Shown: piece by piece, positions 590 through 32,993 of the stretch
How positions within the stretch are numbered: the stretch's first letter is position 1
Layout: each line of letters begins with the position of its first letter
Assembly (NCBI GenBank): GCA_034509925.1
Contig: CM067528.1
Span: forward strand, 1,453,501 to 1,517,500
DNA: 64,000 nucleotides
Source: Hirudinaria manillensis
Lineage: Eukaryota; Annelida; Clitellata; Hirudinida; Hirudinidae
Reading direction: 5' to 3'
Made by a program: the position numbers and the translations under genes
The notes under the pieces: model-generated
Databases searched by the model: none
What the model was told of the DNA's origin: nothing
The model's input: only the letters and a program-made list of their open reading frames with translations

Positions 590-1887
590 CCGCTCTTGCC
601 CTCGATCGTGTCTTCCAATTTGAGACATTAAAGTGGCCTCATTTAGTAAATCAGGTAATATATCATATTTAATTATTTATTTATTTATATTTTTTTAAAC
701 ATCCGTGTCAAAAACTTTTCATATTGAAATTACGAAATGCATACTTCAAAAAATATTTCAAATGCAATTTGAATATTGACAATTTTTCTTGAAAAAAAAA
801 CTAAAATAAAACTGAACAATTTTATTTTTCAAGACCAGAATTAAAGTTCAGGAATTGCTCTCTAAAATCTTTCCAAACGTGGAGGTACAATCCGTTTTTA
901 CATTTTCAATGCAGACTGTAATGAGTACATTTTCTTTATTCCTATTCCTGTAGCAACAAAAGGACGTATTTTAATTTGAAATTTCATTTTCATAACAGTT
1001 CAAAGTTTTCTCAGTTAAGGACAGAAAAAGATTCTTGGAAGAATTCTTCTTTGAGAATATCAAAATCGTTGTTGATGACAACGACATTGTTATGGAAGAC
1101 CCTGTTTTCACTGGATTAAGTAGGAAAAATATTCTACTTTTGTTTTGAGCAAGTATTCAGAAATACTTTTAAATTTTAAATACGTTAACTACATTATTTT
1201 GCTTGTTATTTATTTTTGGTATTATTCAAAAATTGTGTATTTGTCATTGTTTCCATTTAATATGCTAAGTTTACATTTAATTATGCCAGAGCCAGATTTC
1301 ACTTTTGCCCAGAAACTCTTAGGGATGGTATGAATTAAATTTGAGCCGATTTTTTAAAATCTAAGGTAGACAGCAATTGATCACCTTTACATGAATTATT
1401 GATTAATTTAATTTAATTATTTAATAATAATTCGAACTTATTTCCAAGAATGAAGTCTGATTTGGATTATCAATATCCGGTAGATATTTTGCGTAGGAAC
1501 AGATAAGATTCAGAATTCTTTGAATTTATTACATTACATTGTTGCAGCTTAGAGTAAAGTCCTTTTTGTTTTGACTTGATTTCCACATTTTCAGAATTGG
1601 AACGAAGTGAAGTATGCCGTGACTAAAGCCTGGCCCACTGCCAAGGTACTTAAAGATCTTTTTGTTAGCTAGACAAATGGTATCATTTAATGATCTATTC
1701 ACAAAGTCATTTAACCATATGTTTTCGTATTTATAAAAGCTCTTTACTTTAAATCCAGGTCGTTGTGGAGCAAGGTGGCACCAGGATTACCGACGATGAT
1801 CAGGGAGGCAACTATGTTCTCATCTTTGCAGATCCCGACGACATCGTCAGAAAAATGCCGGAGTATGTCAGGGTGCCCAAAAGTTAA
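590..1887 (+). CDS. Inhibitor-like gene 1 (potato inhibitor I/eglin-like, two modules), 5' partial
   Basis: Exons by splice signals and phase: 590-654, 834-884, 999-1119, 1290-1327, 1595-1645, 1759-1887 (TAA). The signal-peptide exon must lie left of the window, because its equivalent in gene 2 is about 100 bp before the matching position. Module A carries K-W-P-H-L-V at the end of its first exon, close to the W-P-E-L-V-G signature of potato inhibitor I; then a 17-residue helix ending FPNVE; then a strand exon with NIKIVVDDNDIV and DPVF. Module B repeats the scheme: AQKLLG, a helix ending PTAK, then VVVEQGG...NYVLIFAD and MPEYVRVPKS. Known for the family: small serine-protease inhibitors with one helix, a beta sheet and an exposed loop. 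Inferred here: a secreted two-domain relative. The loop-supporting arginines of eglin c are not obvious, so inhibition is unproven. A cystatin-like fold is the main alternative. Poly(A) signal AATAAA at 2037. Confidence 0.65.
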
Positions 1888-2516
1888 GCTGGAATCTGTC
1901 AGTTAAGAGAATGGAGTTCCGTGACGTTCTTAGGAATAATAATTTAAAAATATACTTATATTACTCAGTATTTTGTTTAGCATTTCATTTCTTATTTCGG
2001 CCATTTATTTTGCCCACAAACTCTTGTTTAATGCTAAATAAATTACTTTGAAATTGTTTGACCAGAGATAATTAATTATGAGATTAAGAAATTTTGGAGA
2101 CGATTAAAGTCATCTGCACTAAAGATGTTGTTTATTTAATCAGAGCGTGTTCGTTATAACATGTTAAGGATTATTAAACTGATAAAAAGACAAAAAGATT
2201 TCGACCAGTACTGACCTTAATTAATAATAATTAGCAATAGTGATAAAGAACCACACAGTGTGCAACACGCAAGGGTGTTTTAATAACAATTTTTAACATT
2301 TTTTAAACTTCATTATCAATTATTTGCACCAGTGCAACTGTTTACATACCATGGACAAACTTTGTTTACGTAAGATATCAAAAACTGATCAATAAAATCA
2401 ATTGATGAAATAATCAATTGTAAATTAAAAATTAATAGTATATAATGAATAAAGTGTAATACAATATAATGTATAATTGATTAACTCATTCAACTTAACA
2501 TACAAAGGTTGATAAT
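1888..2516. other. Intergenic, AT-rich, nothing coding seen
   Basis: Follows the stop of inhibitor-like gene 1 and holds its poly(A) signal at 2037-2042. The rest is AT-rich DNA without a recognisable exon, RNA or repeat, up to an AAT tract at about 2520. Confidence 0.5.
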
Positions 2517-3820: not shown

Positions 3821-3883
3821 ATAACAAGTGTTCAGTTGATTTGAAGATACTTCTGCCTCTACTTTCGCTTCGCTAGATTGTCA

Positions 3884-3915: not shown

Positions 3916-3919
3916 TAAT

Positions 3920-5098: not shown

Positions 5099-5380
5099 AT
5101 CAAACTACGTCCTCATCTTCGCAGATTCCGATGAAATCGTCAGAGAAATGCCAAGTATGTCAGGAGCTTGCCCAAAAGTAACTCTTAAGCTGGAATCTGT
5201 CAGTTGAGAGAATGGAGTTCCAATCGTTCTGAGGAATTTAATTTTAAATTCTAAATTAAAGGAGTTTAATTTTAAAATATACTTGTTTAATATTTCATTT
5301 ATTTTTTCGGCCATTTAATTTGCCCACCAATTCTTGTTTAATGCGCAATGATCGAAATAAATTACTTTGAAATTAAGTTA
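5099..5380 (+). pseudogene. Orphan terminal-exon fragment of the inhibitor-like family
   Basis: Starts inside the last exon (NYVLIFADSDEIVREMP in frame) and carries the family's 3' flank, including the CTGGAATCTGTCAGTTGAGAG stretch seen after genes 1 and 2. Small indels after the conserved Pro break the Y-V-R-V-P-K ending. No upstream exons are present, and the 5' edge is fused to Helitron DNA. It is a broken gene copy or a Helitron-associated fragment. Confidence 0.65.
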
Positions 5381-5847: not shown

Positions 5848-5880
<33 letters not shown>

Positions 5881-6063: not shown

Positions 6064-8061
6064 ATGTTAGCAAAATACTTCGTCTTTCTGTGTTTATTCA
6101 GCACCGGTTAGTTATTCAGTCTTCTGTAAACTTTATTTTATTCCAATTTCAGTTCATTAAGTGATTGTATTAACTAAGAAATTACAATCATTTATTTAAT
6201 TATTTATTTTTCTAAACAAAATGAAGGGTCATCCGATGACCTCTTACACATTTTGTAGTAGCGTTAGACAACAGAAAATAGACTGAAACGGAATCAAGCA
6301 ACATTGTCAAAAGAAAGTCAAGTTCACTTAATGGATAGATAACTACCTATACACGCATGATTTGAAGCAAGAAAATGTTGAGCAGTTAGTGACATCATAT
6401 GGTAGTGAGTTCCAGAGTTTGGTAATGCGGTTGATGAAAAAATGCTGCCTGTGACTGGTGGAGCATTTCTCTTGGCGTAAGCGAAGGGGGTGACCACGGG
6501 TTCTGGAAACTAGAAAGTTAGGGAATTGTGGAGTGCTGCATTTAACATGACCTTGAACCATTTTCTAGCACAGGCATAAATCGTGGATAATACGTCGATG
6601 TTCGAGTGTTTTAAGTCCAAGTTGTTGTAATCTTCTATGGTATGGCAGTGTTCTGAAGCCGGATTTAGAAAGAATTAGAAACTAAATTTTAAAAATTATG
6701 CCGAATTTTATACTTACGGATCCTTAGATAATATCACAAAAACCCTTGACCAGCAACAGCCGCCCTTGCCCTCGATCCTGGGTTCGAATTTGAAGAAATA
6801 AAATGGCCTCATTTAGTAAATCAGGTAATATATCATATTTAATAATTTATTTATAATTATTTTTGTATACATCGCTATCAAAAACTTTTCATTTTGAAAT
6901 TACGAACTTCAAAATTCAAAAAACATTTCAAAGGCAATTTGAATATTGCCAATTTTTCTGGAAAAAAAACCAAAATAAAATTGAACAATTTCATCTTTCA
7001 AGACCAGAATTAAAGTTCAGGAATTGCTCTCTAAAATCTTTCCAAACGTGGAGGTACAATCCGTTTCTACATTTTTAATGCAGACTGTAATGAGTACATT
7101 TTCTTTATTCCTATTCCTGTAGCAACAAAAGGACGTATTTTAATTTTAAATTTCATTTTCATAACAGTTCAAAGTATTCTCAGTTAAGGACCCAAACAGA
7201 TTGATGGAAGAATTCTTCTTTGAGAGAATCAAAATCGTTGTTGATGACAACGACATTGTTGTGGAAGACCCTGTTTTCACTGGATTAAGTAGGAAAAACA
7301 TTCTACTTTTGTTTTGAGCAAGTATTCAGAAATACTTTTAAATTTTAAATACGTTAACTACATTATTTTGCTTGTTATTTATTTTAGTATTACTTAAAAA
7401 TTGTGTATTAGTCATTGTTTCCATTTAATATGCTAAGTTTACATTTAATTATGCCAGAGCCAGATTTGACTTTTGCCCAGAAACTCTTAGGGGAGGTATG
7501 AATTAAATTTGAGCCGACGAAAGGATTTTTAAAATCTATGGTAGACAGCAATTGATCGCCTTTATATGAATTATTGATTAACTTAATTAATTATTTATTA
7601 ATAATTCGAACTTATTTCCAAGAATGAAGTCTGATTTGGATTATCAATATCCGGTAGATATTTTGTTTAGGAACAGATAAGATTCAGAATTCTTTGAATT
7701 TATTACATTACATTGTTGCAGCTTAGAGTAAAGTCTATTTTGTTTTGACTTGATTTACACATTTTCAGAAGTGGAAAGTGATGGAGGAAGCCGTGATCAA
7801 AGCCTTGCCCACTGCCAAGGTACTTAAAGATCTTTTTGTTAGCTAGACAATTGGTATCATTTAATGATTTATTCACAAAGTCATTTAACCATATATTTTG
7901 GTATTTATAAAAACTATTTACTTTAAATCCAGGTCGTTGTGGAGAAAGGTGGCACCAGGATTAGTAGCAATAATCAGGGAGGCAACTATGTCCTCATCAT
8001 GGCAGATTCCGATGACATCGTCAGAGAAATGCCGGTATATGTCAGGGTGCCCAAAAGTTAA
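6064..8061 (+). CDS. Inhibitor-like gene 2 (potato inhibitor I/eglin-like, two modules), complete
   Basis: Seven exons: 6064-6106, 6760-6824, 7003-7053, 7168-7288, 7458-7495, 7769-7819, 7933-8061. They total 498 nt, an exact multiple of three, for 165 residues. The ATG begins MLAKYFVFLCLFSTA, a clear signal peptide, so the product should be secreted. Module A: IKWPHLVNQ (potato inhibitor I-like W-P-x-L-V), helix ending FPNVE, strand RIKIVVDDNDIVVEDPVF. Module B: AQKLLGE, helix ending LPTAK, VVVEKGGTRISSNNQGGNYV, then YVRVPKS. Intron phases are 1,0,0,1,0,0, so each module is bounded by phase-1 introns. All introns are GT-AG. Gene 1 is its close paralogue by segmental duplication. Role as a protease inhibitor is inferred from the fold pattern; the target is unknown. 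Confidence 0.72.
6190..6670 (-). mobile_element. Non-LTR retrotransposon 3' tail in intron 1 of gene 2
   Basis: The minus-strand frame 6561 to 6343 ends a polymerase: FFINRITKLWNSLPYDV followed by a Ser/Phe/Lys-rich end, as in CR1/L2-type elements. It is 5'-truncated and keeps about 150 bp of 3' sequence. The matching insertion in gene 1 shows it was there before the duplication. Confidence 0.7.
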
Positions 8062-9074: not shown

Positions 9075-11186
9075 ATGTCCGTCTATTCATTCCTTGTTCT
9101 TCCAACTTTGCTTCTGATGAAATTGGATCCAATTACAGCTTATCGTAATTAGTAGCATTACGTTTTATAGCTCGGACTTCCAATGCATAATATGTCGAAA
9201 AAATAATAATTTTGTTACAATTTACATTTTACATAAAGTTACAATTGAAATTAAAATTTACATAAAGTTTTCAAATTTGTTCTATAATAAGAAATGGTAA
9301 TTCTTATGGTTCAATTACGTGCCCAGTAAGTCGATTAAACGTTTTGATTTAGAATAATATGAATTAATAATAACATAATGAATATTTAAACAATTAAATT
9401 TATGCAGCTTATTGTGATTCGAAGAAGCCACGTGAGGGATTTACATTCTTACAAACGTGGTGGTCGGAGTTCGTGCTGCTGGTGAAAATTAATAAATTAT
9501 ATGAATATCAATTAATGATTAGTATTAATACTTCATTTATTAATTAATATATCTTAATTATTTCATTCATTTACGTAAATATACTCTTAAATTAAAATAA
9601 CATGTGAAAATAACGGTTATTCGATTTTTACTTCATTATTTATTTTAGAGTGTTGAAGAAGTCAAGCTAATATTCAGAAACGAGTGGCCACACGTAAAGG
9701 CAAGTGAAGGAGTTGATATGCAATAAGTAAACTTGATACATTTTACCAATATCATACAATAGGTATTACAAAAGGGTAACAAATATTTTTGACAGTAATA
9801 GTAATAATAATAATAATAACAATAATAATAATAGACATTATGTTGTAATTACGTTTAAAAGAATTACTGTAATTTAACGGACTGCAAATCAGTTGTAATA
9901 CATTCGACAATTGTAATACAATAATGTAATGAATCATTTATTCCTTAAAAGATTGACATGTCGTGCTATTTGGCATAATCCTTACAATCGCTGTAATTTT
10001 GATTTATTTGTAAATTCTGTATAATTCGACAGTTCAGAGTATATGAATTGCATCATAACGATTCCGAGATGTGTCTTGGCCACATAAAAATCATCGTCGA
10101 CTGGTATGGCGTTGTCGTGGTCCCACCTAGTTACACGGCCTATGGTAAATTTATGACGAATTTTTTCTTCTTTCTTAAATATTTTTTTCTAAAAATTTTC
10201 CCCCTACCCAATGCATAATTTTGTGAGTTTAACATAAAGTTGTTTATTATTTGTAATTGATTTATTATTACGTGACTGTATTAATAAGTATTGAATTACT
10301 TTAAGTACTGTTGAATCCCCTTTTGTCTCTTTTTGGTTGTGCTTTACATAATTGCAAATCATTAAGTAATGGCTTTCATTAACGACTTAAGTGTTTAGAA
10401 AATATTACAATACCCTTACAAGAACACCTCTAAAATATAAGAATTACAATTATAATAACACTATAATAGCACGTAATAATAAAATCCATAACAATGTTTC
10501 TAACAATTTCATTCAGAACCAGATATGTCGCTAATCCGTTTTATGGCAGGAGAGGTAACATGGAAATTATGTGGATGCTTAATTTTTAGTTGTCAGTTGA
10601 ATGTTATTTAAATGTTTTGTAATTGAAAATAATTCAGTTTTCGGTGAACCAACGTCTCTCAGAAGTTCATTTTTTCGTAATTTTTCCAGAACCTCACGAA
10701 AGTCATTGAGCGAATTCTGTCTAAAATTCCTTCCATCAAGGCAGGTTCCAGTTTATTTTAATCTTATTTTTAGGCTGAAATTTGTTTTGTCATTCGACAT
10801 GAAACGTCGATTAATTTTGACGTTGGTGAATGAACTCATTCAAGAGTAAGGTCGTTTTCTAAATATGACTTAAAATGTACAATTAAGTAATTAAATAAAT
10901 AGTCGAGAATACATTTTTAATTACGCAATATATTATATCATTTTATTTATAATTCACAACGCCAACCATAATAAATTTATTTATTAAAAATTAAACATTT
11001 TATTAATAATAGATTGGAGTTCAGTTCGCCGGCGAGGAGATAATGGCCGTGAGAAATACAGAAGAAAGACAATATATTCTCATAAACGTTGCAGACAATT
11101 ACAAAGTTTACTCTCCACCCGAGTACATAAGATTCCCAAAAGACATTAGGACTAATTTAGACTTTAATTATAAGGATAGGGGTTAG
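9075..11186 (+). CDS. Inhibitor-like gene 3 (two modules, two GC-AG introns)
   Basis: Exons 9075-9144, 9408-9481, 9649-9699, 10033-10144, 10517-10554, 10690-10740, 11013-11186; 570 nt, 189 residues. Start: ATG at 9075 gives MSVYSFLVLPTLLL, a good signal peptide; an in-frame ATG at 9048 would only add nine polar residues. Module A: TWWSEFVLL (degenerate W-P-E-L-V), helix SVEEVKLIFRNEWPHVK, strand HIKIIVDW...VVVVPPSYTAY. Module B: SLIRFMAGE, helix NLTKVIERILSKIPSIK, IGVQFAGEEI, QYILINVAD, SPPEYIRFPK. Both helix exons are followed by GC donors (AAG|GCAAGT and AAG|GCAGGT), the only choice keeping phase. The C terminus runs about a dozen residues beyond gene 4 and stops inside a TTAGGG-type tract. 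Secreted inhibitor-like role is inferred. Confidence 0.68.
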
Positions 11187-12651: not shown

Positions 12652-14556
12652 ATGTCCGTCTATTCATTCCTTGTTCTTCCAACTTTGCTTCTGATGAAAT
12701 TGGATCCAATTACAGCTTATCGTAATTAGTAGCATTACGTTTTATAGCTCGGACGTCCAATGCATAATATGTCGAAAAAATAATAATTTTGTTACAATTT
12801 ACATTTTACATAAAGTTACAATTAAAATTAAAATTTACATAAAGTTTTCAAATTTGTTCTATAATAAGAAATGGTAATTCTTATGGTTCAATTACGTGCC
12901 CAGTAAGTCGATTAAACGTTTTGATTTAGAATAATATGAATTAATAATAACATAATGAATATTTAAACAATTAAATTTATGCAGCTTATTGTGATTCGAA
13001 TGAGACACGTGAGGGATTTACATTCATACAAACATCGTGGCCGAAGTTCGTCTGGAAGGTGTAAATTAATAAATTATATGAATATCAATTAATGATTAGT
13101 ATTAATACTTCATTTATTGATTAATATATCTTAATTATTTCATTTACGTAAATATATTCTTAAAATTAAAATAACACGTGAAAATAACGGTTTTTTGATT
13201 TTTATTTCTTTATTTATTTTGGATGTTGATGAAGTCAAGAAAATATTCAGTGATATGTGGCCAGACGTGCAGGCAAGTGAAGGAGTTGATATGCAATAAG
13301 TAAACTTGATACATTTTGCCAATTTCATACAATAGGTATTACAAAAGGGTAACAAATATTTTTGACAATAATAGTAATATGTCGGACAACAATAAGAATA
13401 ATTATATTGTAATTACCTTTAAAAGAATTACTGTAATTTAACGGACTGTAAATCAATTGTAATACATTCGACAAATGCAATACAATAATATAATGGATCG
13501 TTTATTCCTTAAAAGATTGACATGTCGTGCTATTTGGCGTAATCCTTACAATCGCTGTAATTTTGTTTTATTTGTAAATTCTGTATAATTCGACAGTTCA
13601 GAGAATATGCCTGGTCTCATAACGATACCGAGGAATGTTATGGCTACATAAAACTCATCTCTTCTTATGACCTCGTCATGGGCCCACCTAGTTACACGGC
13701 CATGGGTGAATTTATGACGAATTTTTTCTTCTTTCTTAAATATTTTTTTTCTAAAATTTTTCCCCCTATCCAAATCATAATTTTGTCAATTTAACATAAC
13801 ATTGTATTAATAAGTATTGAATTACTTTAAGTACTGGTGAATCCCCTTTTGTCTCTTTGGTTGTGCTTTACATAAGTGCAAGTCATTAAGTACAAGTTAA
13901 GAGGTTATTAATAATGGCTTTCATTAACAATTATAATAACACTATAATAGCACGTAATAATAAAATCCATAACAATGTTTCTAACAATTTCATTCAGAAC
14001 CAGATATGTCGCTAATCAATTTTATCGCAGGAGAGGTAACATGGAAATTATGCGGATGCTTAATTTTTAGTTGTCAGTTGAATATTATTTAAATGTTTTG
14101 TAATTGAAAATAATTCAGTTTTCGGTGAACCAACGTCTCTCAGAAGTTAATTTTTTTCGTAATTTTTCCAGAAATTCACGCCTCTCATTCAAAAAATTCA
14201 GTCTAAAATTCCTTCCATCAAGGCAAGTTCCAGTTTGTTTTGTTATTCGACATGAAACGTCGATTAAGTTTGACGTTGGTGAATGAACTCATTCAAGAGT
14301 AAGGTCGATTTTTAAATATGACTTAAAATGTACAATTAAGTGAATAAATAGTTAAGAATACATTTTTAATTACGCAAATCATAAATTTATTTATAAAAAT
14401 TAAACATTTTATTAATAATAGATTGGAGTTCAGTTCGACGACGAGCTGCCAATAGCCGTGAGAAATGCAGAAGGAAGACAATATATTCTCTTAGACGTTT
14501 CAAACAATTACAGAGTTTACTATCCACCCAAGTTCATAAGATTCCCAAAGACTTAA
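12652..14556 (+). CDS. Inhibitor-like gene 4 (paralogue of gene 3, one acceptor lost)
   Basis: Exons by alignment with gene 3: 12652-12721, 12985-13058, 13222-13272, 13597-13705, 13998-14035, 14172-14222, 14422-14556; 528 nt, 175 residues if all are joined. Signal peptide MSVYSFLVLPTLLL. Module A: TSWPKFVWK (better W-P-x-x-V than gene 3), helix DVDEVKKIFSDMWPDVQ, strand YIKLIS...GPPSYTAM. Module B: SLINFIAGE, helix ending IPSIK, IGVQFDDEL, QYILLDVSNN, YPPKFIRFPKT. Both helix exons have GC donors. Oddity: the base pair before the third exon is TG (13220-13221), not AG, so normal splicing at that site should fail. Every frame is otherwise open. It is either a recent pseudogene, uses a nearby acceptor with an altered helix, or carries a sequencing error. 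Confidence 0.6.
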
Positions 14557-15345: not shown

Positions 15346-16078
15346 ATGAAGCATTTCCTTTGGTTCACTGTATTATTGGCGGTGCTGGTGATGGTCATAC
15401 TACCGAAGTGGACCAGTTCACAGAGTGAGCAACATTAAATTTAATCAAATTTTGTCAAATTAAATACTAAAGTAATAGTAATAATATTACTATTAATATT
15501 ATTCACGTGACTCTTTCAAAATTTGTAACAAGCTCGAGACATTGCACCTCTGACTAAGAAAATGATGGGAAAGGTATTAAATTCTAGAAATTGCAAGTTT
15601 AATATGTTTTAATTTTTTTTACAAATTAACCATTAATTAATTAAATAATTTATTAATTCATAATTTTCTGCTGAAATATTGTCGGATTTAAATCCAATAT
15701 TTATAGAAATGGTGGCAAGCCGTGAAATTAGTCAAGGAATACCTTCCAAATGTCACGGTGGATATTTTTCTCTTCAATTTGTTTTCATTTGCATTAAAAT
15801 TATTTAAAAACTGCGGAGAAAATGACCTATATTGTATGTTACATGGTCTCTATAATTGCTCATTTGTTAGAAGTATACGATTTAAAATTAAAGTATTATT
15901 TAATCATTTAAATTTGTTAAAATGAAAGAATTTCAACCGCCAGGTGGCCGTTGAACAAGACAACAAACGAATCCACATCCGCTACGGGAGCAGTTGGAGT
16001 TACATGCTGTTGACAGCTGATGCCGATGACGTGATCAGGGAGTATCCCCTTTATGTCATGGAAATTAAAAACAGCTGA
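15346..16078 (+). CDS. Inhibitor-like gene 5, single module
   Basis: Exons 15346-15424, 15533-15573, 15707-15757, 15944-16078; 306 nt, 101 residues. The long hydrophobic start MKHFLWFTVLLAVLVMVIL is a signal peptide or anchor. One module only, of the second type: IAPLTKKMMGK, helix KWWQAVKLVKEYLPNVT, then VAVEQDNKRIHIRYGSSW, YMLLTADADDVI and YPLYVMEI. The signal exon ends in phase 1 and joins directly to the module, exactly as expected if a complete phase 1-1 module was lost, or if this is the ancestral form. The mature size is close to that of eglin c (about 70 residues). It is the copy that best shows that one module equals one domain. Inhibitory function is inferred only. Confidence 0.68.
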
Positions 16079-17010: not shown

Positions 17011-19142
17011 ATGAAGTGCTTTGTTTTTCTGATTCTTTTCCTATGCGCAACTGGTTGGTTCTTGAACATATTTAATCAGATTTTAAATTCACTCATTCAC
17101 CTTGCTACGAGAAGCATTCCATCTTATTAGTTGTTAAGGCAGTGGAATAGATATCTTTGTAAAAGAATGTAATTTAATTCATTTTATTTCATTTTTATAT
17201 TTAAAATTTTGTTTTGATAAGTAATATTTCAAAGTTGCGAAATGTTTTGCCAATTGCAGTTGTATTGTTTCAAATGGCACATTTAAACTGTGTCATATTT
17301 CGATCCATTAAACGGACTATGGTAAATCAATAATGAGTGAATGGATAAATAAATATTAAATAAATAAATGTAATATAATAATTTATTTTACATTGTGGTA
17401 ATTAAATTCAGAATATTTATGTTACTATTAAATAAAAAATCAGGTGTTTCAGACATTGTCATGGGTGACAATCTCTACAAAGCTGTAGTAACGAGATATC
17501 ATGCTTTAGCTAATAAGGTTAATATAATATTATGAATAAAATATATATAATTAAAATATTTTTAAATAAATTCATTATTAGTATATATATATAAATATAA
17601 ATTGACATGAGATATTATAAATAAAGAATTATTTATTTTTTAATAAAGTTGATGTTTTTAATGCTAACATTATAAATATATAAACTTTCCTCAGCCTCTC
17701 AAAGAAGTGAAAAAGAATCTGACAAGGATTTACCCAAAGGCGGAGGTGGGTGCTTTATGATTAGATTTTGTTTTATAAAATGCTAAAAAAAAATTTTTTA
17801 TCAATTTAAAATTAATTATATATACACTTGTTGTTTTATAAGTTGATTACTTTTAATATTTATCTATTTAATATATTAATTCATTAATTCATTCAGAAAC
17901 AACTAATTTGCTTTTGAATAAAGTTGTTAGTCACAGCTTGGAACCATAACGATCCGTATTTCCTGAAAATAAAATTCACAACACATTTCACTTCACAAAA
18001 AAAAAATTAAAATTAAAAGATCGATGTAATAAACAAATAAATTAAATAATTAATGCAAATAATATAAAAAGATTTATTTAAAAATAAAATTATATTAGGT
18101 CGTTTTGGCATGGAATAAAGTAAAAAGACCATTGTCGCCTTATTGGAACAAGATTGTGATAAAACTCAATTCTAAAAACATCACTGTTGGTTCACCCATG
18201 TACGTCAGTAAAGGTTTGATTGTTTGAATTTGCTTCTTAATTGTAAATATTTTTCCGTAATTCTTAATTCATTTTTATTATCATAACTTCATAAATTCAT
18301 AAATTTTTTGTTTTGTTTATATTTTCCCTGGCTTTGGTAACAGTTTTATATATATATAACGTTATATGTATTTATAGCAATTATACAATATATGATATAC
18401 AACAACCGCAAATATAGTATATATATATATTTAATATTATTAAATAATCTGTATTTTAACTCCAGTGCCCGATTTGAAATTTCTCAAACCTTTTGTTGGC
18501 GAGGTATTTAAAGTTTATATTTTACGTTAATGGTTAAAGAAGAATTTTAGAAGTTTAATTCTCACTGATATATGACAACCACGAGTTGCTTTACAATTTA
18601 ATGTTAATTATATAAAATTACTTATTTAATACCATTGAGTTTGTTATAAATAATTTATTTTTATAACTGCAGTCTGTCGGGAAAGCCATAGTTAAAATAA
18701 TATATCGCCTTCCAGACATGGGGGTTTGTGATCTTTTTAATTTATTTGTTTATTAATTATAAATCTGTCAAAACAATCATTGGCATGAGTTGCTTCGCGA
18801 CAGCTTTCCTGACTTTTCTTCAGTCCCTCGCAAAGCAATTATTCAAGTTAATATCAAAACTTCAGCTTGCAAATTCAAACTAGCAATCTATACTGACTAC
18901 AGTATGTTCTTCTGAAGTTAATAAATAATATATAGTCAAGAGAATTGAGACCAATAATAATGATGTATAATAATATAATAATATATATATATTATTAGAT
19001 AATAGTCAAGAGAATTGAGACCAACGCAGTGGTTTGGAGGAACCGAACAGAAACTGATTCCCACATTCTCCTGAAAATTTCCAATGACGGCATTCTTCGT
19101 TTAGAACCGGAATATGTTGACAACAGCCAAAAGGGACGTTGA
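17011..19142 (+). CDS. Inhibitor-like gene 6 (two modules)
   Basis: Exons 17011-17053, 17444-17517, 17695-17745, 18099-18213, 18466-18503, 18673-18723, 18999-19142; 516 nt, 171 residues. Signal peptide MKCFVFLILFLCAT. Module A: TRYHALANK in the W-P-x-L-V position, helix PLKEVKKNLTRIYPKAE, strand VVLAWNK...NKIVIKLNSKNITV. Module B: LKFLKPFVGE, helix SVGKAIVKIIYRLPDMG, then IIVKRIETNAVVWRN, HILLKISNDGIL and PEYVDNS. The usual C-terminal Y-V-R-V-P-K is replaced, making this one of the more divergent copies. All introns GT-AG. Exon 2 could start nine bases later at a second AG in the same frame; 17444 is preferred because it gives the 74-nt length seen in genes 3, 4, 7 and 8. A relict extra strand exon lies in intron 3. 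Confidence 0.65.
17924..18010 (+). pseudogene. Relict strand exon inside intron 3 of gene 6
   Basis: After an AAG acceptor-like site an open stretch reads LLVTAWNHNDPYFLKIKF before low-complexity Lys/Asn and a stop. It resembles the start of the genuine exon at 18099 (VVLAWNK...). It has no good donor in the right place. It looks like a decayed duplicate of the strand exon, or possibly an alternative exon. Confidence 0.45.
18934..19024 (+). repeat. Short tandem duplication covering the start of gene 6 exon 7
   Basis: AGTCAAGAGAATTGAGACCA occurs at 18934 and again at 19004, 70 bp apart. The second is coding, the first is intronic. Confidence 0.75.
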
Positions 19143-19929: not shown

Positions 19930-21728
19930 ATGAAAACCTTTGCGATAATAGTCAGCATCAGTTATTTTGCTACAGGTTACTTTGGGTTTATTATTTATTA
20001 TATATTAGAAAATAAATTATTCATTGTTGTTTTTAGAATTAAATTATCATTTAATTCATGTTAAAGAAATGAATTTATTTCTGTTTCACTTTCAGCCATT
20101 TACGGATTTGTTCTGGTTCCAGAGGGATATCGCTTAGTCTCCATAATTTTTATTGGCTATTCATTCAAGGTATTTATTTCAAACCAATCTGTGATGGTGA
20201 TAATTTTACTAAAACAACAAAAACGACAAATGACAACAAAAAGATACCAACTGTTCGCTAAACCATTTAGAACTACAGTTACAATCAACTACGTGTAACT
20301 ACATCACAGCTTCTGCGTCCGTGGAACTAAAATACCAACAACAAATTTCAAAGCACGACATTAAATGTTACGAAACAAATTCCATTTTTAAATAAAATTT
20401 TTCGTATTTTTAATGCAAAAATAACAAATTTGATGAATAATACCATTTATTTACTTCCAGCCCAGATATCTTGTTGAACGAGAACTAGCGAAACAATTGC
20501 CAAACGTCCAAGTAAACAAATATTATTAAATATAAATTAGGAAAATTATCAAATAATAGTATAATCCTTGAAATAACAATTATTATGAATGGCCACAAAA
20601 TGTGGTCTCAAAAGTTTTTTGTTTTAATTAAAGTAATTAATAAAAAAATAATTAATAAATAATTCTTTCGAATTTACAAACAAATAATTTCAATTGTCCT
20701 GCGGATATCATTTTTTATTTTTTTTTAAGCCTTAAAAATTATTTTAAATCGCAATCAGTTTGACAAACAACAACAACAACAACAACAACATGAACATCAA
20801 ATCATATCTTTCAAACGACAGTTCAAGATATACACGACAGAGAATTACTATATTTACCCAGAAGAATTCTATTTTGGAAAGATCAGACTCGTAGCGGATG
20901 ACGAAGACGTGGTCATGCTTCCACCCGAATTTAGCGGATTAGGTTTGAAAATAATGACATTATATTAATTATAATAATGATAATAATACTGTTACTAATA
21001 ATAATAATAGTAATGATGATGATGATGACGTTATAATTTCATTAAATTAAAAATTATTTCAATTTTAAAGACCCAAGTTGCAGATGATTTGTTAAACAAA
21101 ATCATTTCAGAACCTGATTTGAAGTTCGCAGCTAAACTAGTAGGAGAGGTTGTTGTTGTTGTTGCTGTTCATAAATTTTACAACCACTTTTTAATATAAT
21201 TGAGTACATTTGCAACAGTAATATCATGAAATATTAATTCATTTAAAAAAAAACAAAATCTGAAACAGAAAGATTACATGGAAGCTGTTCGAGAAATACA
21301 ATCGTTTATCCCAACCGCCAGGGTAATTAACCAATTCTTTCAACTTTGTATTTTTTCTTTGTGGTTGCTTATTAAATCCTAAATTAGTTGTTGAAATCAT
21401 CTGAATTTAAATTCAGACTTTAACGGGATTGTGATTTGATTAATTTGTTTAATTTATTGTTATTATTTACGTTATTATTAACATTGCTTACATTGCTATT
21501 CATCCTTAATAAAACCAAACAAAGAGAAACGTAGAAATCTTAAACTCTCTAAGGCTATATTTATTTTTTGTTTAGATTGTTGTCCAGAAAGGTGAGACTG
21601 TTATCTGGAAATCCTCAGAGGCAAACTGGGACTACATTCTCGTTGAGGTTTCGCCCACGGATTCGACAGTCACTGCGATTCCGAAATTTGTCAGAGTTCC
21701 TAAGACTCTTAGTCGTATATTTGTTTAA
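19930..21728 (+). CDS. Inhibitor-like gene 7 (two modules, clearest family example)
   Basis: Exons 19930-19975, 20096-20169, 20461-20511, 20822-20942, 21111-21148, 21269-21322, 21576-21728; 537 nt, 178 residues. Signal peptide MKTFAIIVSISYFAT; an in-frame ATG at 19921 would add three residues. Module A: helix PRYLVERELAKQLPNVQ, strand FGKIRLVADDEDVVMLPPEF. Module B: AAKLVGE, helix DYMEAVREIQSFIPTAR, IVVQKGETVIWKSSE, DYILVEVSPTDSTVTAIP, FVRVPKT. The order L-V-G, A-V-x-E-I, P, V-V, G, then a hydrophobic strand and x-V-x-x-x-P follows eglin c closely, and this copy led me to the family. Helix exon 6 has 18 codons, one more than others. The last six codons beyond VPKT are not shared with relatives and may come from an inserted retroelement tail. 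All introns GT-AG. Confidence 0.72.
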
Positions 21729-22938: not shown

Positions 22939-24942
22939 ATGAAAACTTACGTATCAATAGTCATCGTAATCTATTTCGCTACAGGTCAGTATGAGTTTGT
23001 TTGCATTTTTTTTAAGGAATTGATTTGTTTACTTTTGTTTTTCGAAATAAATTGCTTAAATTAAGGTGGTGTGAACTGATTATTTCGTTTCAGTCATGTA
23101 TGGGATGATAGTCATGCCACAAGGCTACCAAGATGCTTCAGTAACTTTCGAGGGCTTTCAAAATGAGGTATTCATTTTAAGTCAATCCATATTTTAATTT
23201 CTCTATTGAAATTCACAGGAAGTAACGCAGTCACGATGTTAGGGAACAGTCGACATTTTTTCTTAATTTTTATAAATATTCAAATATTTTTAATGCAAAA
23301 ATTGCAAAGCTTTGATGAATTTTAGTGAATAAAATTGATTATTTTTTCAAGCCAAGAGCTGATGTTGAGCAAAAGGTCTCATTTATGTTGCCAAACGTTC
23401 CGGTAAAAAAAATATATAAATTATTTCATTTTTTATTTTGTTAAATATTATTAATTTGAAGAAAATTTCATCGCGTGGCCACGATTTCTTTGGTTTGAAA
23501 TGTTTGTTGATTTAATTAAGCATTGTTCGTATGACGAGATGATTCATTTATTTCGAATTTGAAAATAAATCAGTCAAATAATGAATTATTTTATTTTTTT
23601 TATTTAATTAGTGTTTAATAATGTATTTATGTTCATCAAATGATATGTTTAATAAATATTTGAACAATATTCCATCAGATTTTAAATAGCACTTAATAAC
23701 TTAATATTTTAAAATGATTATGAGTAAAAATCATGCAATTAACATTTTTGAAAAAAAGGAATTTTATTAAATTTTACTACTACCACCACCACCAACAACA
23801 ACAACAACAACTTCATGTTCCAACCAACAGTTCAGGATCTACTCAGAACAGAATTACAGCATTTATTCGGAAGAATTCTTTTTTGGAAAAGTCAGACTCG
23901 TCATCAACGACAACGACATTGTTGTCCTGCCACCGAGATTCTTTGGAATCAGTTCGAAATAATAACATAATATTATTTTCAATAGAATAATTACAATATT
24001 AATATTATAATATTTAAATATAATTCTAAATAAATAATCATAATTATTATGTTAACTATAATAATATTAATGATAATAATAATTTTATTAAGATGTAAAA
24101 TTGTTTAAATGTTAAAGACCCAATCGTACTTATTTACATTAAGCTCTTTGTTTCAGTGCCAAATTTAACGTTCGCTGGTGGACTATTGGGAAAGGTTATT
24201 GTTATTAATATTATTACTATTATTATTATTATTGTTTATATTTAAGTGGATAAATTGCAAATATTAATATAAAATATTAAGGGTTAATATATTTTAAATA
24301 ATAACAATAAAAATATTAAACTTTTTTTCTCTTGCAAAAAAATCTAAAATTTCAGGATAACAAAACCGCCGTACAGACGATCCAAGAACACATACCATCG
24401 ATCAAGGCAAGATGGCCAAAAATTGCTTCGACTTTTTTTTAGAATCTAATTTCCATTTTTATTTGTTTATTTATTTTGAAAAATAAATCGTTAGTTTCGG
24501 CAGGTACAGATTTAAATAATCTTTGTTACTTGTATAATAAATAATAATTGTATAATAATTATTGTTGTAATTATTATTATTACTAAATAATCTTTATTAC
24601 TTGAGTGAATTTAGTGAATAAATAAATAAATATAATAATAATTGTTATATAATTATAATTATTGTAATTTACAATAATAATAATTATTATAATATTAATA
24701 TGAAATTATTATTATTGTAATAAAAAATGTTCATTCTTAAAAATTATACTAACAACCTTAAACCCCAGAAATCTTCAGAGGAAGCTCCACATTATTTTCA
24801 GATCATTGTCCAAACGGATGGTTGTAGCATCGTTTGGCAGTCCACAGAAAAGAAGGAGGACTACATAATCGTCCAGGTGTCGCCCGAAGACTTAAAGGTC
24901 ACCAAAGAACCTAAGTACGTCAGGGTTCCAAAGAATTATTAG
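22939..24942 (+). CDS. Inhibitor-like gene 8 (two modules, frameshift in exon 4)
   Basis: Exons 22939-22984, 23094-23167, 23352-23402, 23832-23951, 24157-24194, 24356-24406, 24802-24942. Signal peptide MKTYVSIVIVIYFAT, close to gene 7. Module A: helix PRADVEQKVSFMLPNVP, then FRIYSEQNYSIYSEEF. At that point a run of five T (about 23879-23884) replaces the six bases found in gene 7, a one-base deletion that throws the rest of the strand exon out of frame. Module B is intact: TFAGGLLGK, helix DNKTAVQTIQEHIPSIK, IIVQTDGCSIVWQS, DYIIVQVSPEDL, PKYVRVPKNY. The second helix exon has a GC donor (AAG|GCAAGA). Either a young pseudogene or a homopolymer error in the sequence; with the base present the product would be 173 residues. 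Nearest relative is gene 7. Confidence 0.6.
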
Positions 24943-25732: not shown

Positions 25733-25771
<39 letters not shown>

Positions 25772-26571: not shown

Positions 26572-26712
26572 GCTACCTTCGCAAACATTTTCGGCCAACG
26601 AAATCTCGCTACTCATTCGGTAAGATTTATGGAACTATTTCCATTTTAATTTCTATTTATTTGATAGAAAATCAGGAAAAAGAAACTTGAAAATCATTTT
26701 ATTATTTAAGAC

Positions 26713-28243
26713 ATGATTGTACTCGAACCTGGATTTAAGAGCGTTTCCAAGATATGGAAAGATTATGTCAACAAGGTAGAGAATGCTTCAGTTTTTTACT
26801 GTTGAATCTTAATTTCAGACAATACATATGAATATTTATTGAACATAACATTATGCCCATTAATTAAATGTTAATTTTGTAACAAATATAATTAAATCAA
26901 GCATTCATTCATTTATATTTTCCAATTTCCATGTCAGCCCCGGAGTGAAGTTGAAGAAATCCTGAAGAAAGAATTGCCAAACGTTGAGGTTGTCTCAAAA
27001 AAAAAAGCTTCAGCTGCACAAAACGATATCCTTCCTCATTTTGTAATGAAAAATTATTTCAAATAACAAAATTAATTTTTAAATCTCCAGTTTCAAATCT
27101 TCGAAGAAGAGGAATTCAAATTTTGTTCAGAAGAATTCTACTTCTTAAAGATTGCACTCGTGCTGGACAAGAGTGGAATGGTGGTTTGTCCACCAAAATT
27201 CTTTGGATCAGGTCTCAAAGTTTTGTTTACAAATTCAGGATAAACAAAGCATCCAATTCATTTGACTTGAGAATTTATTTTCAATTTTTAGAACCAGACT
27301 TTAGCCTCATCAAAAGCCCCAGTGGGAAGGTGAATCATTCATGCTAATGTTTACATATTGAGTCACCTCTCTTGCATGAGAGCATTGCATTGTAAGAACT
27401 TAAACTAGTCCATAATATTATTACTCAGAAAGGACAATTTTTTAATTAATATTTTTCTAAGGTAAAAAAATTACATCGAATCTAAAAGAATGTACTACGA
27501 CGAAGTTCTAAGCTGACACCGCCGGTTGGTTGGCACGTCATAACAAAGTTTTGCACTCAAAAAAACTCAATCTCAGTCATTTCTTTCAGTTCTTGAATCT
27601 TTCGAGCGTCCATAAAATCACGAACGTCCTCAAACGCCCACTTGTTTCGATTCAAAGCCGATGACTTTGTTTTGAAACTTCAGCTGATTAAATGTAAACA
27701 CAGCAAAAAGAACATCTAAAGCGCCATTTTCCAAACCTTTCTTGGCATTAAATTATTTTCGCTTCGAGTCCTTGGACTATCTTTTAAAAAAAGATAATTG
27801 ATTATGTAAAATGACATTTAGTGTTTCGTATAGAATCGAGTAATGTGATTGATGAATTTATTCCAGACTTACCAGAGCGTTTGCGATGACATCAAAGCAC
27901 ACATTCCAAGTGCTAAGGTAAAAATCAGTTGTTTTTTTTTCCTAGTTATAAAATCCATGCTAATACGTCTTTAGATCTTTTCTTTTAATTTCTGTTTTTA
28001 ATCTCAATCCAATGTTGATCGTTGAATCAAAAAGTCAAATTCGCCTTACAACTTTATCTCTGTTGATTCGACTGTAAGTAAATAACTGATCCCAAACTAA
28101 AGGTTGTTGTCTTGGGCAAAGATGGCCAACAGAAGTGGTCCAACAAGGAGGCTGTTGAACATTACATTCTCGTCAAAGTTGACGGCGATAAAGTTTGCGA
28201 AGATCTTAGCTACGTCAGAGTTAGCAAACAAATGCACAAATAG
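26713..28243 (+). CDS. Inhibitor-like gene 9 (two modules, no signal-peptide exon found)
   Basis: Coding exons 26713-26775, 26938-26988, 27091-27211, 27292-27329, 27867-27917, 28103-28243; 465 nt, 154 residues. The first recognised exon begins at 26711 with AC then ATG, so translation can start in the module itself: MIVLEPGFKSVSKIWKDYVN. The likely upstream exon (ending at 26611) has no ATG in frame before a stop. Unlike the other complete copies, this product has no visible signal peptide and may be intracellular, unless a signal exon was missed. Module A: helix PRSEVEEILKKELPNVE, strand FQIFEEE, KIALVLDKSGMVVCPPKFF. Module B: FSLIKSPSGK, helix TYQSVCDDIKAHIPSAK, VVVLGKDGQQKW, HYILVKVDGD, LSYVRVSKQMHK. 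All introns GT-AG. Confidence 0.63.
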
Positions 28244-29950: not shown

Positions 29951-30421
29951 ATATGTTTTGTCGAATTTTCTTTCGAATGATGTTGACAGCGACGATGACT
30001 ATGATGATGGTTATCATCATTGTTACTATTATTGTTGTTATTGCTAATATTATCATTATCATTATCATTATCATTACCAATGACGTTTTTATCACTTAAT
30101 TTTAAAGTTAGAATTAAATGACGTCCAAGTTAGAACAATGATCAAAGTTGTTTCGATTACGTAACCTGCCCGAAGGAAAGAAAACATTTTAATTTCAAAT
30201 AAAATATCGTATCTTTCAACTTCGCCTTTTATCCTTGAATGAGACACGGATCACTGCACACGTGTTTTACTGATAACTAACTGATAATAACTTTCGTCAC
30301 TTTACTCAGACAATGATTTAAGTAACTTGATAATTGCCATTGAAGATTTTTAAAGAAACAAAGATATGCAATGTAAAGTTTGTCATCTTCATAGGTTTTT
30401 GGACTATTTAGGAGAAAACAG
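29951..30421. other. Intergenic between convergent genes
   Basis: ATG/ATC trinucleotide and TATCAT repeats at 29990-30080, then AT-rich DNA. It holds the 3' ends of the C2-PDZ gene (+) and inhibitor-like gene 10 (-). Confidence 0.4.
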
Positions 30422-32993
30422 TTATTCCGAATCTGGCAAGTTGGCTTGACCTTCTGCAGCACTCCCCTCTGCCCCTTCATCTGTATTTTCCTCTGCTTGG
30501 GTAGTTTTTCGAGTAGACTCAGGGAATGGCAGGACCCGGATGTAAATGGGCGGCTCTACGACATTCAGGTCGAGGCCTAGCAACAAGATAACGTAGTTGT
30601 TCGAAGAGCTGCCTTTGTCTTCTGAGATCAGAAAATCCTCCCCGTTTTCCAAATTGATCACAATCTGCAGATATAAATTATTACCTTTTTGGACTTTATT
30701 CGTGGAATTTAAACGTAAAGTGTATTTCAATGACTTGCCTAGCAAGTAAATAATAATAATAATATTAATAATAATAATAACATTATTAATAATAATAAAT
30801 TATAATAATAACAACGTCGCTCAACCTCTTCTTTTACAACAGTCCTGAGAATATCAAGAGCTTCAGAGTGATTCTAAAATTTAAAATAATATTTTTATTT
30901 AATAAATAATTAAACATAAATTCATAAATAGAAATAATATAATTTATTAATTTTGTAATTATGAAACGAATATGGAAGCCTGCAGTTCAATCAGTTCAAT
31001 AGATTAGATGATTCTTGATGATTCAGAAGACCTCAACGAGTACCTTTCCAACGAGATCTCCCAATTTTTCAAAATCAGGTTCTGAAAATTACATTTTGAA
31101 ACTATTAACCAATTAAATCCATTATTAATTAAAGTAAAATGACTATAAAAGTAAATTTATAATTTATAAATACGAAATAAATTAGAAATTTCGTGATATA
31201 ATCTTTAATTAATCAAAAATTATTTATAAAATTGTTTTAAAAAAATGCACAAATTTACATGAGCAGTATAACAAATCCAAAGCCAACCGTGGCCAAAAAA
31301 CTTTGGAGTTTCGACCACATGGAAAGAAGAGTTGAAAACCAATTTGATTTTGTTGAAGTAGAATTCCTCTGGCAAGTCCTCCTCGAAGAAGTGTCTGAAC
31401 TGTTGACAGTAATTATAATAATAATTAATGATAATAATAATAACAATAATAATTACAATAATAATAAGAAGAAGAATAATTAATGATAATAATAATGAAA
31501 AATAATAATAACAATAATATTTTTAATATATTTGTCAAATGCGATCGCTGGATTTGCTGGAAAGGTAAATCTTTGAATATAATTAATTACCTTTAATATT
31601 TAAAAGTAAATGTGTGATTGTATTTGATTAAATTTTATTAATTTATTAATTAATACATTAATTAGAATGATATTTTATATTTTAAATTAAATTTCCATTT
31701 AATGTAACAAATCAGTATTTACCGCAACTCCTGGAAACTTTGAAGTGAGATATTGCTCCGCTTCTTGCTTAGTCTGACACAAATTAAAGAAAAAAAAAAC
31801 GTAGTTTTGTAATTTTGCAGCTCAACTAAATCGTGTTAATTAATTATTTATTTAATTAATTTACATAATTATTATATAAATACGAAATAATATCAGCTAG
31901 CAGTCTGCTTGTAGTATTTGTTTGTACTTGCATTAAGACGTTAATTGGGGTTAACCATTCAATTATTTGAAAGTTTTCCGTTTATTGACAATTTGGATTC
32001 CTATAAATTAATTAATTAATTAATTGTTTTTATTTGAAAAAATAAATTAAATAAAATGCATCTTCAAAAGTCGTCAAATTGGGCCGCACTGTCGAAGTTA
32101 AGAGGTTTGTTGAACTTTGAACTTTGAACAGTTGCGAAAAAATTTCCTTGAATCGAAATTAACTAAAACATTTCTATATTTTACGATTTTTTCAGATAAT
32201 TAAATTATTGATTTATGATTAGTAGTTTCTAATTTATACGATAATTAGACGTATTAACGATATTTAATTTAAAAATATTATAATAATATTAATATAATAA
32301 TTTTATTTAATAATGAATTTCTAATCCAAAATAATGACCTTTTACCACAAATGTTTTTATGCTTTTAAAGTTTTAAAACTAAAATTAGGTATTTATTAGC
32401 AAAAAAAGATTCTTTTTAAATAAACAAACTTCCTTAAATTTAAAACAAGATAAATTTCTTACCATCCCAATCACCTCATCCCAGGTGTGAATCACCTGCT
32501 TGTATCCAGGCTCCAATAATATGGAGCAGTTGGCTTTAAAATCATTTTACGAAATCATTAAAATTTATTTTAAATTATGCGCCATTCTAACATCCCCTAA
32601 AATTATTTATAATTATACAATTAATATTATTAGGTCACCTAGGATATCACCTAATTTCTTTTGAATCCTAATTTCTTCTTAAATCTATCTTAAAAGAAAA
32701 GAACATACTTTATTACCCCTTATTCAATAATCCGTTTACAAATTCCTCCATCTTTGTCCTTATATTTTGCAACCATTAACATATGTTAATATCATTAACA
32801 TATCATTAATATCATTAACATATGTTAATATCAGCGTCAATATTTAAATGGCATTAAATTCAAACTTATTAATGCCAATAATTTATCAATAATTAAAAAT
32901 TCGCAAAAAAAAAAAACAAAACAAAATCTAATCAAATTAACGAGTTTTACCGAAGGCAACCGCAATAGCGATGCAGAACAAACTTTGCTTCAT
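30422..32993 (-). CDS. Inhibitor-like gene 10, inverted, with acidic C-terminal tail
   Basis: Minus-strand exons in order: 32993-32951, 32533-32463, 31773-31723, 31399-31288, 31081-31044, 30873-30826, 30664-30422; 606 nt, 201 residues. Signal peptide MKQSLFCIAIAVAF. Module A: HTWDEVIGM (W-x-E-V-I-G, nearest of all to W-P-E-L-V-G), helix TKQEAEQYLTSKFPGVA, strand FNKIKLVFN...VVETPKFF. Module B: EKLGDLVGK, a 16-codon helix without the usual Pro, IVINLENGEDFLI, NNYVILLLG, PPIYIRVLPFPE. The tail of about 30 residues after that is rich in Glu, Ala, Gly and Gln and found in no other copy. Only member on this strand, at the right edge of the array. Intron phases are the same 1,0,0,1,0,0. Role inferred from family only. 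Confidence 0.7.

Follow-up and report, generated by a model that had tools for sequence, protein, structure and literature searches.

A tandem array of predicted secreted two-domain potato inhibitor I-type proteins in the leech Hirudinaria manillensis

A 64,000-nt stretch of Hirudinaria manillensis DNA (the window; coordinates are window positions, and negative ones lie upstream of its start) was predicted to hold, between 590 and 32993, ten related genes for secreted proteins, each with a signal exon followed by two eglin-like modules. The locus raises the question of whether both modules belong to the eglin family, how such two-domain genes arose, and what their divergence means. Judging from sequence, we favour, with modest but better than even confidence, the local expansion of one branch of the eglin (I13) family, whose members are predicted to be secreted, double-headed inhibitors under diversifying or relaxed selection.

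Extent and exon plan of the array

All ten window genes (g1-g10) were found where they had been predicted, and the predicted limits coincide with exon edges to the base. The array is larger, however, since the window start is not its limit: five further two-module genes (u1-u5) lie upstream, between -15721 and -856, and with them the array counts 15 genes across 48.7 kb of contig C3, from position 1437779 to 1486493 of that contig. Two modules per gene hold for eight of the ten window genes, including gene 9; gene 5 has a single module, and module 1 of gene 4 has no spliceable B1 exon for lack of an acceptor (Table 1). Over the whole array, 14 of 15 genes encode two domains if gene 4 is counted with its lesion. 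The predicted signal exon precedes the modules in most genes, but that of gene 1 lies outside the window and none is convincing in gene 9, where eight hydrophobic candidates were present against about three expected and none was accepted. Apart from genes 4 and 9, every gene of the array (13 of 15) combines a signal exon with exons that are open and spliceable throughout. Exon relics are present between array genes.

Table 1. Array genes and an exon relic in the window
Feature	Position	Strand	Exons and remarks
Gene 1, two modules	590..1887	+	A1 590-654, B1 834-884, C1 999-1119, A2 1290-1327, B2 1595-1645, C2 1759-1887
Gene 1 signal exon	-101 to -59	+	upstream of window
C2 exon relic between genes 1 and 2	5103..5153	+	no other exons recognised around it
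Gene 2, two modules	6064..8061	+	signal 6064-6106, A1 6760-6824, B1 7003-7053, C1 7168-7288, A2 7458-7495, B2 7769-7819, C2 7933-8061
Gene 3, two modules	9075..11186	+	signal 9075-9144, A1 9408-9481, B1 9649-9699 (GC donor), C1 10033-10144, A2 10517-10554, B2 10690-10740 (GC donor), C2 11013-11186
Gene 4	12652..14556	+	signal 12652-12721, A1 12985-13058, B1-like segment 13222-13272 (no AG before it), C1 13597-13705, A2 13998-14035, B2 14172-14222 (GC donor), C2 14422-14556
Gene 5, one module of module-2 type	15346..16078	+	signal 15346-15424, A 15533-15573, B 15707-15757, C 15944-16078
Gene 6, two modules	17011..19142	+	signal 17011-17053, A1 17444-17517, B1 17695-17745, C1 18099-18213, A2 18466-18503, B2 18673-18723, C2 19011-19142
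Gene 7, two modules	19930..21728	+	signal 19930-19975, A1 20096-20169, B1 20461-20511, C1 20822-20942, A2 21111-21148, B2 21269-21322, C2 21576-21728
Gene 8, two modules	22939..24942	+	signal 22939-22984, A1 23094-23167, B1 23352-23402, C1 23831-23951, A2 24157-24194, B2 24356-24406 (GC donor), C2 24802-24942
Gene 9, two modules	26711..28243	+	signal exon not recognised; A1 26711-26775, B1 26938-26988, C1 27091-27211, A2 27292-27329, B2 27867-27917, C2 28103-28243
Gene 10, two modules, long acidic C-terminal tail	30422..32993	-	signal 32951-32993, A1 32463-32533, B1 31723-31773, C1 31288-31399, A2 31044-31081, B2 30826-30873, C2 30422-30664

The full exon plan is signal, A1, B1 (51 nt), C1, A2 (38 nt), B2 (48-54 nt) and C2, with intron phases 1,0,0,1,0,0 in all 12 seven-exon genes and a phase-1 first intron in all 14 genes that have a signal exon. 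Every model uses AG acceptors, and donors are GT except for GC in g3, g4 and g8. A 17-residue helix ending in Pro had been proposed. As in the eglin genes of the same genome, the B exon codes for such a helix with Pro close to its end and is followed by the strand/loop exon; it is 51 nt almost throughout, the exceptions being B2 of g7 (54 nt), B2 of g10 (48 nt, no Pro) and gene 4, whose 51-base B1-like segment is not preceded by AG and is thus either a lesion or a skipped exon. An exon search over the genome with the products of gene 7 and u5 gave matches on contig C3 only among the best candidates, and an HMM scan with module-1 and module-2 profiles found no two-module gene in ten 10-kb stretches of contigs C2 and C6.

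Family assignment and descent of the two modules

Profile searches and gene structure support the assignment of both modules to potato inhibitor I (PF00280, MEROPS I13). The HMM search suggested with the original prediction bore the family out: nine of the 15 array proteins scored above the curated cut-off of 24.5 bits, three scored below it and three had no match. Within the window the four proteins above the cut-off were those of gene 1 (34.4 bits, over two stretches), gene 2 (31.3), gene 8 (26.0) and gene 10 (24.8); genes 3, 7 and 9 reached 14.5, 16.2 and 20.7 bits, and genes 5, 6 and 4 (modelled without B1) gave no match to PF00280. Scored apart, the two modules of gene 1 reached 19.9 and 19.4 bits, each below the cut-off. 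Gene structure adds independent support, as 12 eglin genes on contig C2 of the same genome share the joins A, 16-17-residue B and C of both modules, their B exon being 51 nt in 11 genes and 48 nt in one. It is mainly this agreement that excludes chance resemblance.

HHalign related module 1 to the eglins (E 5.6e-9), module 2 to module 1 (E 1.8e-6) and module 2 to the eglins (E 1.7e-4, 50% probability). Against the PDB, the module-1 profile matched trypsin inhibitor V (E 2.1e-6), CI-2 (1e-4) and eglin c (0.07) with alignments that span the I13 domain; the best matches of module 2 were CI-2 chains, all weak (best E 0.023) and none significant. This last result, the low identity of the divergent modules to eglin and the three proteins missed by Pfam would suit a different fold, such as that of cystatin, that resembles eglin in a few motifs only. 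We rejected such a fold as highly improbable, since cystatins are absent from the Pfam and PDB matches listed, the module-1 matches span the I13 domain and the exon joins are those of eglin genes; the array proteins would adopt the eglin fold.

I13 domains typically begin with W/F-P-x-L-V-G. Of the module starts that had been proposed, W-P occurs in 6 of 13 module-1 copies and in no module-2 copy, where the start is L-(L/V)-G or a variant. The C-terminal P-x-(F/Y)-x-G is present in 11 of 13 module-1 copies and 0 of 15 module-2 copies, the latter carrying an extension x-V-R-V-P-K or a variant. Because it lacks the P-x-x-G end of eglins, we call module 2 a divergent I13 domain by descent and not an eglin. 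Each module contains 0-2 cysteines.

In the tree, all module-2 copies, with the single module of gene 5 among them, form one clade (100/96) and the eglins another (98/91); both modules of gene 6 sit on long branches. Since module 2 is a clade of its own, a single internal duplication probably preceded the tandem expansion. The exons A, B and C of an eglin unit would have been doubled within one gene, whose secreted product thereby gained two consecutive inhibitor domains, and this gene would then have been multiplied in tandem to the roughly 15 genes on contig C3.

Reactive loops and divergence of young copies

I13 reactive loops typically carry Thr at P2 and Asp or Glu at P1', with a pair of basic residues lying behind them. 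At the aligned reactive bond of module 1, with positions set by a strand anchor that misplaces u3, 9 of 13 copies have E-E at P1-P1' and P2 is variable; both basic residues are kept in 7 of 13, and the loop is two residues longer than in eglins. This mostly fixed acid-acid pair suggests that module 1 may bind a Glu-preferring protease or have another binding role. In module 2, neither the Arg pair that backs the loop nor the C-terminal Gly is present; its six young copies have Ser or Thr at the aligned P2 and D, S, T, S, R and R at P1, a site at which the 12 eglins of the same genome likewise vary. The array proteins would be exported via their signal peptide, and serine proteases would engage the variable loop of module 2 in a substrate-like manner, as they do that of eglin.

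Coding parts that change faster than the surrounding DNA are a pattern familiar from evolutionary arms races. In three young pairs, mature exons are about 2-2.5 times more divergent than introns 2-6: 0.105 vs 0.056 in g1-g2, 0.131 vs 0.052 in u2-u4, and 0.192 (88/458, B1-like segment included) vs 0.075 in g3-g4. Signal exons differ at only 2/43, 2/43 and 0/70 positions, respectively, and those of u1 and gene 2 are unlike (23/43 differ). The exon excess also holds against all neighbouring non-coding DNA in u2-u4 (p 1.6e-5) and g3-g4 (p 9e-15); in g1-g2 it is absent against all non-coding DNA (p 0.28) and against intron 1 (p 0.54), and the 5' flank is more divergent than the exons (0.166 vs 0.105). 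The older pair g7-g8 shows no excess (exons 0.406, introns 0.403). Eglin genes served as a control: an excess was seen in egl1-3, egl2-3 and egl9-10, was not significant in egl1-2 (p 0.09), and was reversed in the older pair egl1-4 (exon 0.167, intron 0.383).

The dN/dS ratios were 0.68 (g1-g2), 1.22 (u2-u4) and 1.92 (g3-g4; dN 0.239, dS 0.124), and in no pair did the ratio exceed 1 significantly (Fisher p 0.27, 0.74 and, with the lesion-bearing g4, 0.08). Because dS exceeds the divergence of introns 2-6, gene conversion of introns or base composition may contribute to the exon excess. Among five young copies, changes cluster at the aligned reactive site of module 2 and at the N-terminus of module 1. 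In a permutation test over seven windows chosen with the alignment already in view, variability was significant for the module-2 loop (p 0.006-0.021) and not for the module-1 loop (p 0.10-0.20); the first 12 residues of module 1 vary as much as that module-2 loop does.

An arms race may underlie these changes, and other readings compete with this one. The eglin fold may have been kept while protease inhibition was lost, so that the variable surface binds other partners. The fixed E-E pair in the lengthened module-1 loop would fit such re-use, as would the missing Arg pair and Gly of module 2 and the variable N-terminus of module 1; we nevertheless think it unlikely, if worth taking seriously, given that young module-2 copies keep Ser/Thr at P2 and vary at P1 as eglins do, and that seven module-1 copies retain both basic residues. 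The array may alternatively be a decaying gene nursery in which exon changes are near neutral, a view that we judge rather improbable. It would account for a pooled pN/pS of 0.85 in the mature non-loop part (ten pairs of five genes), for the equal exon and intron divergence of g7-g8 and the absence of an excess over all non-coding DNA in g1-g2, and for the defects of genes 4, 5 and 9 alongside intergenic exon relics. Open frames in young copies say little here, the chance of zero stops being 0.34 for gene 1 after 24 random changes and 0.12 for gene 3 after 43; for gene 8, however, it is only 0.014 after 96, and 13 genes are intact in signal exon and splicing. Near neutrality also sits poorly with mature exons of g3-g4 and u2-u4 that outpace all non-coding DNA next to almost unchanged signal exons.

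Within the favoured reading of double-headed inhibitors, the heads might split the work, module 1 with its fixed Glu-Glu inhibiting glutamyl-specific serine proteases and P1 of module 2 diversifying with hosts, prey or microbes. We regard this division as doubtful; glutamyl-specific protease inhibition is not a known eglin specificity. If true, the division would mean that a leech shows venom-like evolution. One study described mainly purifying selection on the anticoagulants of leeches, among them eglin c (PMC3631404).

Comparison with known inhibitors

Both eglin c and CI-2 serve as models of small inhibitors, and in this analysis they were encountered as single domains only. The array resembles eglin c and the other leech eglins in domain length, A/B/C exon joins, near-absence of cysteine and local gene clustering in the same genome, and a signal exon is present in both eglin genes read that far. 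It differs in that 14 of 15 genes are two-domain, the first intron is in phase 1 (phase 2 in those two eglin genes), the module-1 loop is two residues longer, and module 2 exchanges P-x-x-G for its extended end. Plant inhibitors such as CI-2, trypsin inhibitor V and BWI-1 rank highest when either module profile is compared with the PDB, but the I13 chains listed are short and single-domain (24-92 residues).

Published divergent leech I13 inhibitors may be orthologs; the part of their description available gives no domain number. According to PMC10671345, the elastase inhibitor family HMEI of H. manillensis has 18 genes and, like the array, is a large leech inhibitor family; its ten cysteines led us to reject it as the same family. 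The same source describes internal tandem repeats in leech LDTI and antistasin, which thus share duplicated domains with the array but are cysteine-rich, each repeat having 6 conserved cysteines in LDTI and 10 in antistasin (PMC10671345). In the accessible open-licence literature we recognised no description of a two-domain I13 protein or of such an array, which agrees with the original prediction, where no described cluster of this kind was known. Four eglins have been reported for H. manillensis in that source (PMC10671345), whereas this assembly has, besides the 15 array genes, a single cluster on contig C2 with at least 15 matches of eglin type, suggesting that leech inhibitor catalogues are incomplete. 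Next to the single-domain eglins, the array is a naturally occurring set of two-domain genes whose structure is conserved while their mature exons change fast; it lends itself to tests of how I13 specificity evolves and of whether leech inhibitors take part in arms races.

Extent and exon structure of the array

The window occupies bases 1453501-1517500 of contig C3 in the assembly examined (148.4 Mb, 23 contigs). Gene models were built with splice sites assigned by eye and then checked by script. The array comprises ten genes within the window (g1 to g10) and five upstream (u1 to u4 on the plus strand, u5 on the minus strand), spanning -15721 to 32993, where negative coordinates lie upstream of the window start; the original prediction had confined it to 590..32993. 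The full exon plan, signal-A1-B1-C1-A2-B2-C2 with intron phases 1,0,0,1,0,0, is present in 12 of the 15 genes. One A-B-C exon unit encodes one eglin-type module, and phase-1 introns flank module 1 on both sides. All ten genes predicted in the window were found, but they are not uniformly two-module genes with a signal exon, as had been claimed: g5 has a single module, g4 lacks the AG before its B1-like segment that its twin g3 possesses, and no signal exon was recognised among the candidates examined in g9. Gene g4 may be a pseudogene or skip this exon. In u3, a second A1 copy lies upstream of the one used, possibly as an alternative first-module exon or a crossover product. Elsewhere in the window, GC content is 51% around a receptor frame and about 30% in its surroundings. 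The two adjoining frames between g1 and g2, the first with weak below-cut-off matches and the second without any in the domain search, are perhaps a transposon remnant.

Features of the array and the window (window positions unless a locus is named)
Feature	Position	Strand	Remarks
Gene u1	-11792 to -10104 (L018)	+	
A1 exon copies of u3	L019:3411-3475 and L019:4083-4153	+	
B1-like segment of g4	13222-13272		51 bases
Exon relic	5103-5153		
Exon relic	near -3753		
GC-AG introns	9699, 10740, 14222, 24406		genes 3, 4, 8; donors GCAAGT, GCAGGT or GCAAGA
Two adjoining open frames	2499-3506	+	TGA stop between; between genes 1 and 2
164-base repeat	11634-11797 and 19681-19844		95% identical copies, 8 kb apart, within array
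Intronless open frame	28838-29950	+	370 residues; C2 + PDZ domains; g9-g10 interval
Open frame	36315-37043	-	partial protein kinase match under cut-off
tRNA gene	46538-46609	-	Rfam 64.4 bits
Open frame	56508-58163	-	551 residues; rhodopsin-family 7TM receptor, PF00001 E 1.1e-21

Family assignment and probable order of duplications

Pfam profile scoring of all 15 proteins placed nine above the PF00280 cut-off (u1, u2, u3, u4, u5, g1, g2, g8, g10) and three below it (g3, g7, g9), and gave no match for g4, g5 and g6. The expected assignment of the ten spliced window products to PF00280 was thus obtained for four, whereas six fell below the cut-off or had no match. Scored singly, the g1 modules reached 19.9 and 19.4 bits, both under the cut-off. 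Profiles were built from 13 module-1 and 15 module-2 copies and compared with the PDB. Among the best 60 of 66 matches, the module-1 profile hit only inhibitors of MEROPS family I13, that of potato inhibitor I, at E < 0.01 (best 2.1e-6). The module-2 profile had no significant match; CI-2 chains ranked top (best E 0.023) and unrelated chains appeared from 0.17. When profiles were compared with each other, module 2 matched module 1 (E 1.8e-6) and module 1 matched the eglins of the same genome (E 5.6e-9), while the direct match of module 2 to the eglins was weak (E 1.7e-4, probability 50%).

These eglins lie on another contig, C2, where at least 15 eglin-type matches, 14 over the cut-off, occupy 13.367-13.413 Mb (G000:C2:13367393-13412609, loci L020-L025) with a few additional exon pieces. 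Twelve of the 15 had all three exons readable; in the three left out, A or B could not be recognised. In each of the twelve, exon A closes with P-x-x-x-x-K (a single gene has L for K), the length of exon B is 17 codons in all but a single 16-codon case, and exon C extends to the stop. Their A/B/C joins are those of both array modules. The proposed membership of the potato inhibitor I family is therefore borne out by PF00280, the I13 matches of module 1 and the shared exon joins; homology of the array proteins to I13 is nearly certain, and the genes probably encode predicted secreted double-headed inhibitors.

A tree built from 40 domains (13 of module 1, 15 of module 2 and 12 eglins; 83 columns) placed module 2 in a single clade (100/96) that includes the only module of g5, and the eglins in another (98/91); module 1 grouped at 82/85 except for the long branch of g6. 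The tree program warned of long branches meeting, which makes the finer branching order unsafe. The simplest history would be duplication of the A-B-C unit within one gene; these clades suggest that it probably preceded array expansion and that g5 probably lost module 1.

Divergence of exons and the putative reactive loop

Mature exons differed more than introns 2-6 in g1-g2 (48/455 vs 47/840, p 1.6e-3), u2-u4 (60/458 vs 36/695, p 3.4e-6) and g3-g4 (88/458 vs 83/1111, p 1.0e-10). Signal exons differed at 2/43, 2/43 and 0/70 positions, respectively, and intron 1 of g3-g4 at 2/263. Under a broader control (introns plus 250 bases of 5' and 100 bases of 3' flank), the excess persisted in u2-u4 (0.131 vs 0.066, p 1.6e-5) and g3-g4 (0.192 vs 0.064, p 9e-15) but not in g1-g2 (0.105 vs 0.088, p 0.28); 5' flank divergence reaches that of exons in g1-g2 and u2-u4. 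Signal exons are conserved, while mature exons show constraint no stronger than that of the non-coding DNA nearby and in two pairs evolve faster than it. The comparisons u2-g1 and u4-g1 agree; both involve genes of these pairs. In u1-g2 the excess holds over introns 2-6 only; the resemblance of u1 to g2 covers the mature exons and introns 2-6 and does not extend to the 5' flank, signal exon or intron 1, and u1 looks like a chimera or a gene with a replaced 5' end. No excess over introns 2-6 was seen in g7-g8 (192/473 vs 401/994).

Nei-Gojobori dN/dS over the whole coding sequence was 0.68 in g1-g2 and 1.22 in u2-u4; in g3-g4, calculated on the mature part without B1, it was 1.92 (dN 0.239, dS 0.124). 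In none of the three pairs does it exceed 1 significantly. Nonsynonymous change exceeded introns 2-6 change (p 0.028, 2.0e-5 and 8.1e-10, respectively). Synonymous change (dS) was likewise higher than introns 2-6 divergence, so part of the difference may stem from base composition or from intron gene conversion.

The most variable 8-column stretch among u1, u2, u4, g1 and g2 is the module-2 loop. HHalign aligned this loop with eglin T-L-D, residues that belong to the TLDLR reactive segment (PMC11897028). Module-2 P1 residues in these genes and u3 are D, S, T, S, R and R. Pooled pN/pS was 1.48 for this loop, 1.01 for the module-1 loop and 0.85 for the remaining mature protein. Seven windows, chosen after inspection of the alignment, were permutation-tested: three around the module-2 loop gave p 0.006-0.021, a window over the first 12 residues of module 1 gave p 0.005 and the next N-terminal window p 0.06, and two on the module-1 loop were not significantly variable (p 0.10-0.20). 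E-E occupies the aligned reactive bond in 9 of 13 module-1 copies, a count in which u3 was anchored at the wrong strand of its domain.

We lean towards secreted double-headed I13 inhibitors under diversifying or relaxed selection. That the heads have divided roles, module 1 holding a fixed Glu-Glu bond against glutamyl-specific proteases while module 2 diversifies, would accord with the E-E copies and the variable module-2 loop; we consider it distinctly unlikely. Relaxed selection, with the array decaying and exon changes near neutral, is favoured by the loss of the g1-g2 excess under the broader control, has against it the persisting excess of u2-u4 and g3-g4, and seems to us rather unlikely. 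The non-coding controls weaken the g1-g2 case, which lowered our confidence in the double-headed and divided-head readings and raised it in relaxed selection.

Comparison with leech eglins

Leech anticoagulants including eglin c are described as mainly under purifying selection, one eglin codon being positive by one method (PMC3631404), and divergent eglin-like salivary transcripts are reported from Hirudo, with domain number absent from the text (PMC7191736). The accessible portions of these two papers and of PMC10671345, PMC11897028, PMC10887747, PMC10087013 and PMC12984643 contain no two-domain I13 protein. Aimed searches of the open-licence literature, partly seen, likewise found no described two-domain cluster, in agreement with the original prediction; the array is a genuine branch of an established inhibitor family, new within the literature searched.

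Eglin numbers in Whitmania species range from 2 to 11 (PMC11897028), and four eglin genes, 83-88% similar to eglin c, were published for H. manillensis (PMC10671345), compared with the at least 15 matches on C2. At least 63 antistasin-domain matches in the assembly exceed the Pfam cut-off; together with the eglin cluster they identify the genome as that of a leech. The two eglin genes traced to the signal exon have it immediately before A, with a phase-2 first intron, whereas the first intron of the array genes is in phase 1. Like the array copies, the 12 eglins vary at P1, where they carry L, F, S, M, D, A, R, H, K or E. Young pairs of these eglin genes (egl) also showed an exon excess over introns, mostly in exon C (egl1-3 p 0.011, egl2-3 p 0.0012, egl9-10 p 0.0017; egl1-2 p 0.09). 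The older pairs differ: egl1-4 is constrained in the ordinary way, with divergence of 0.167 in exons and 0.383 in introns, whereas g7-g8 of the array is not.
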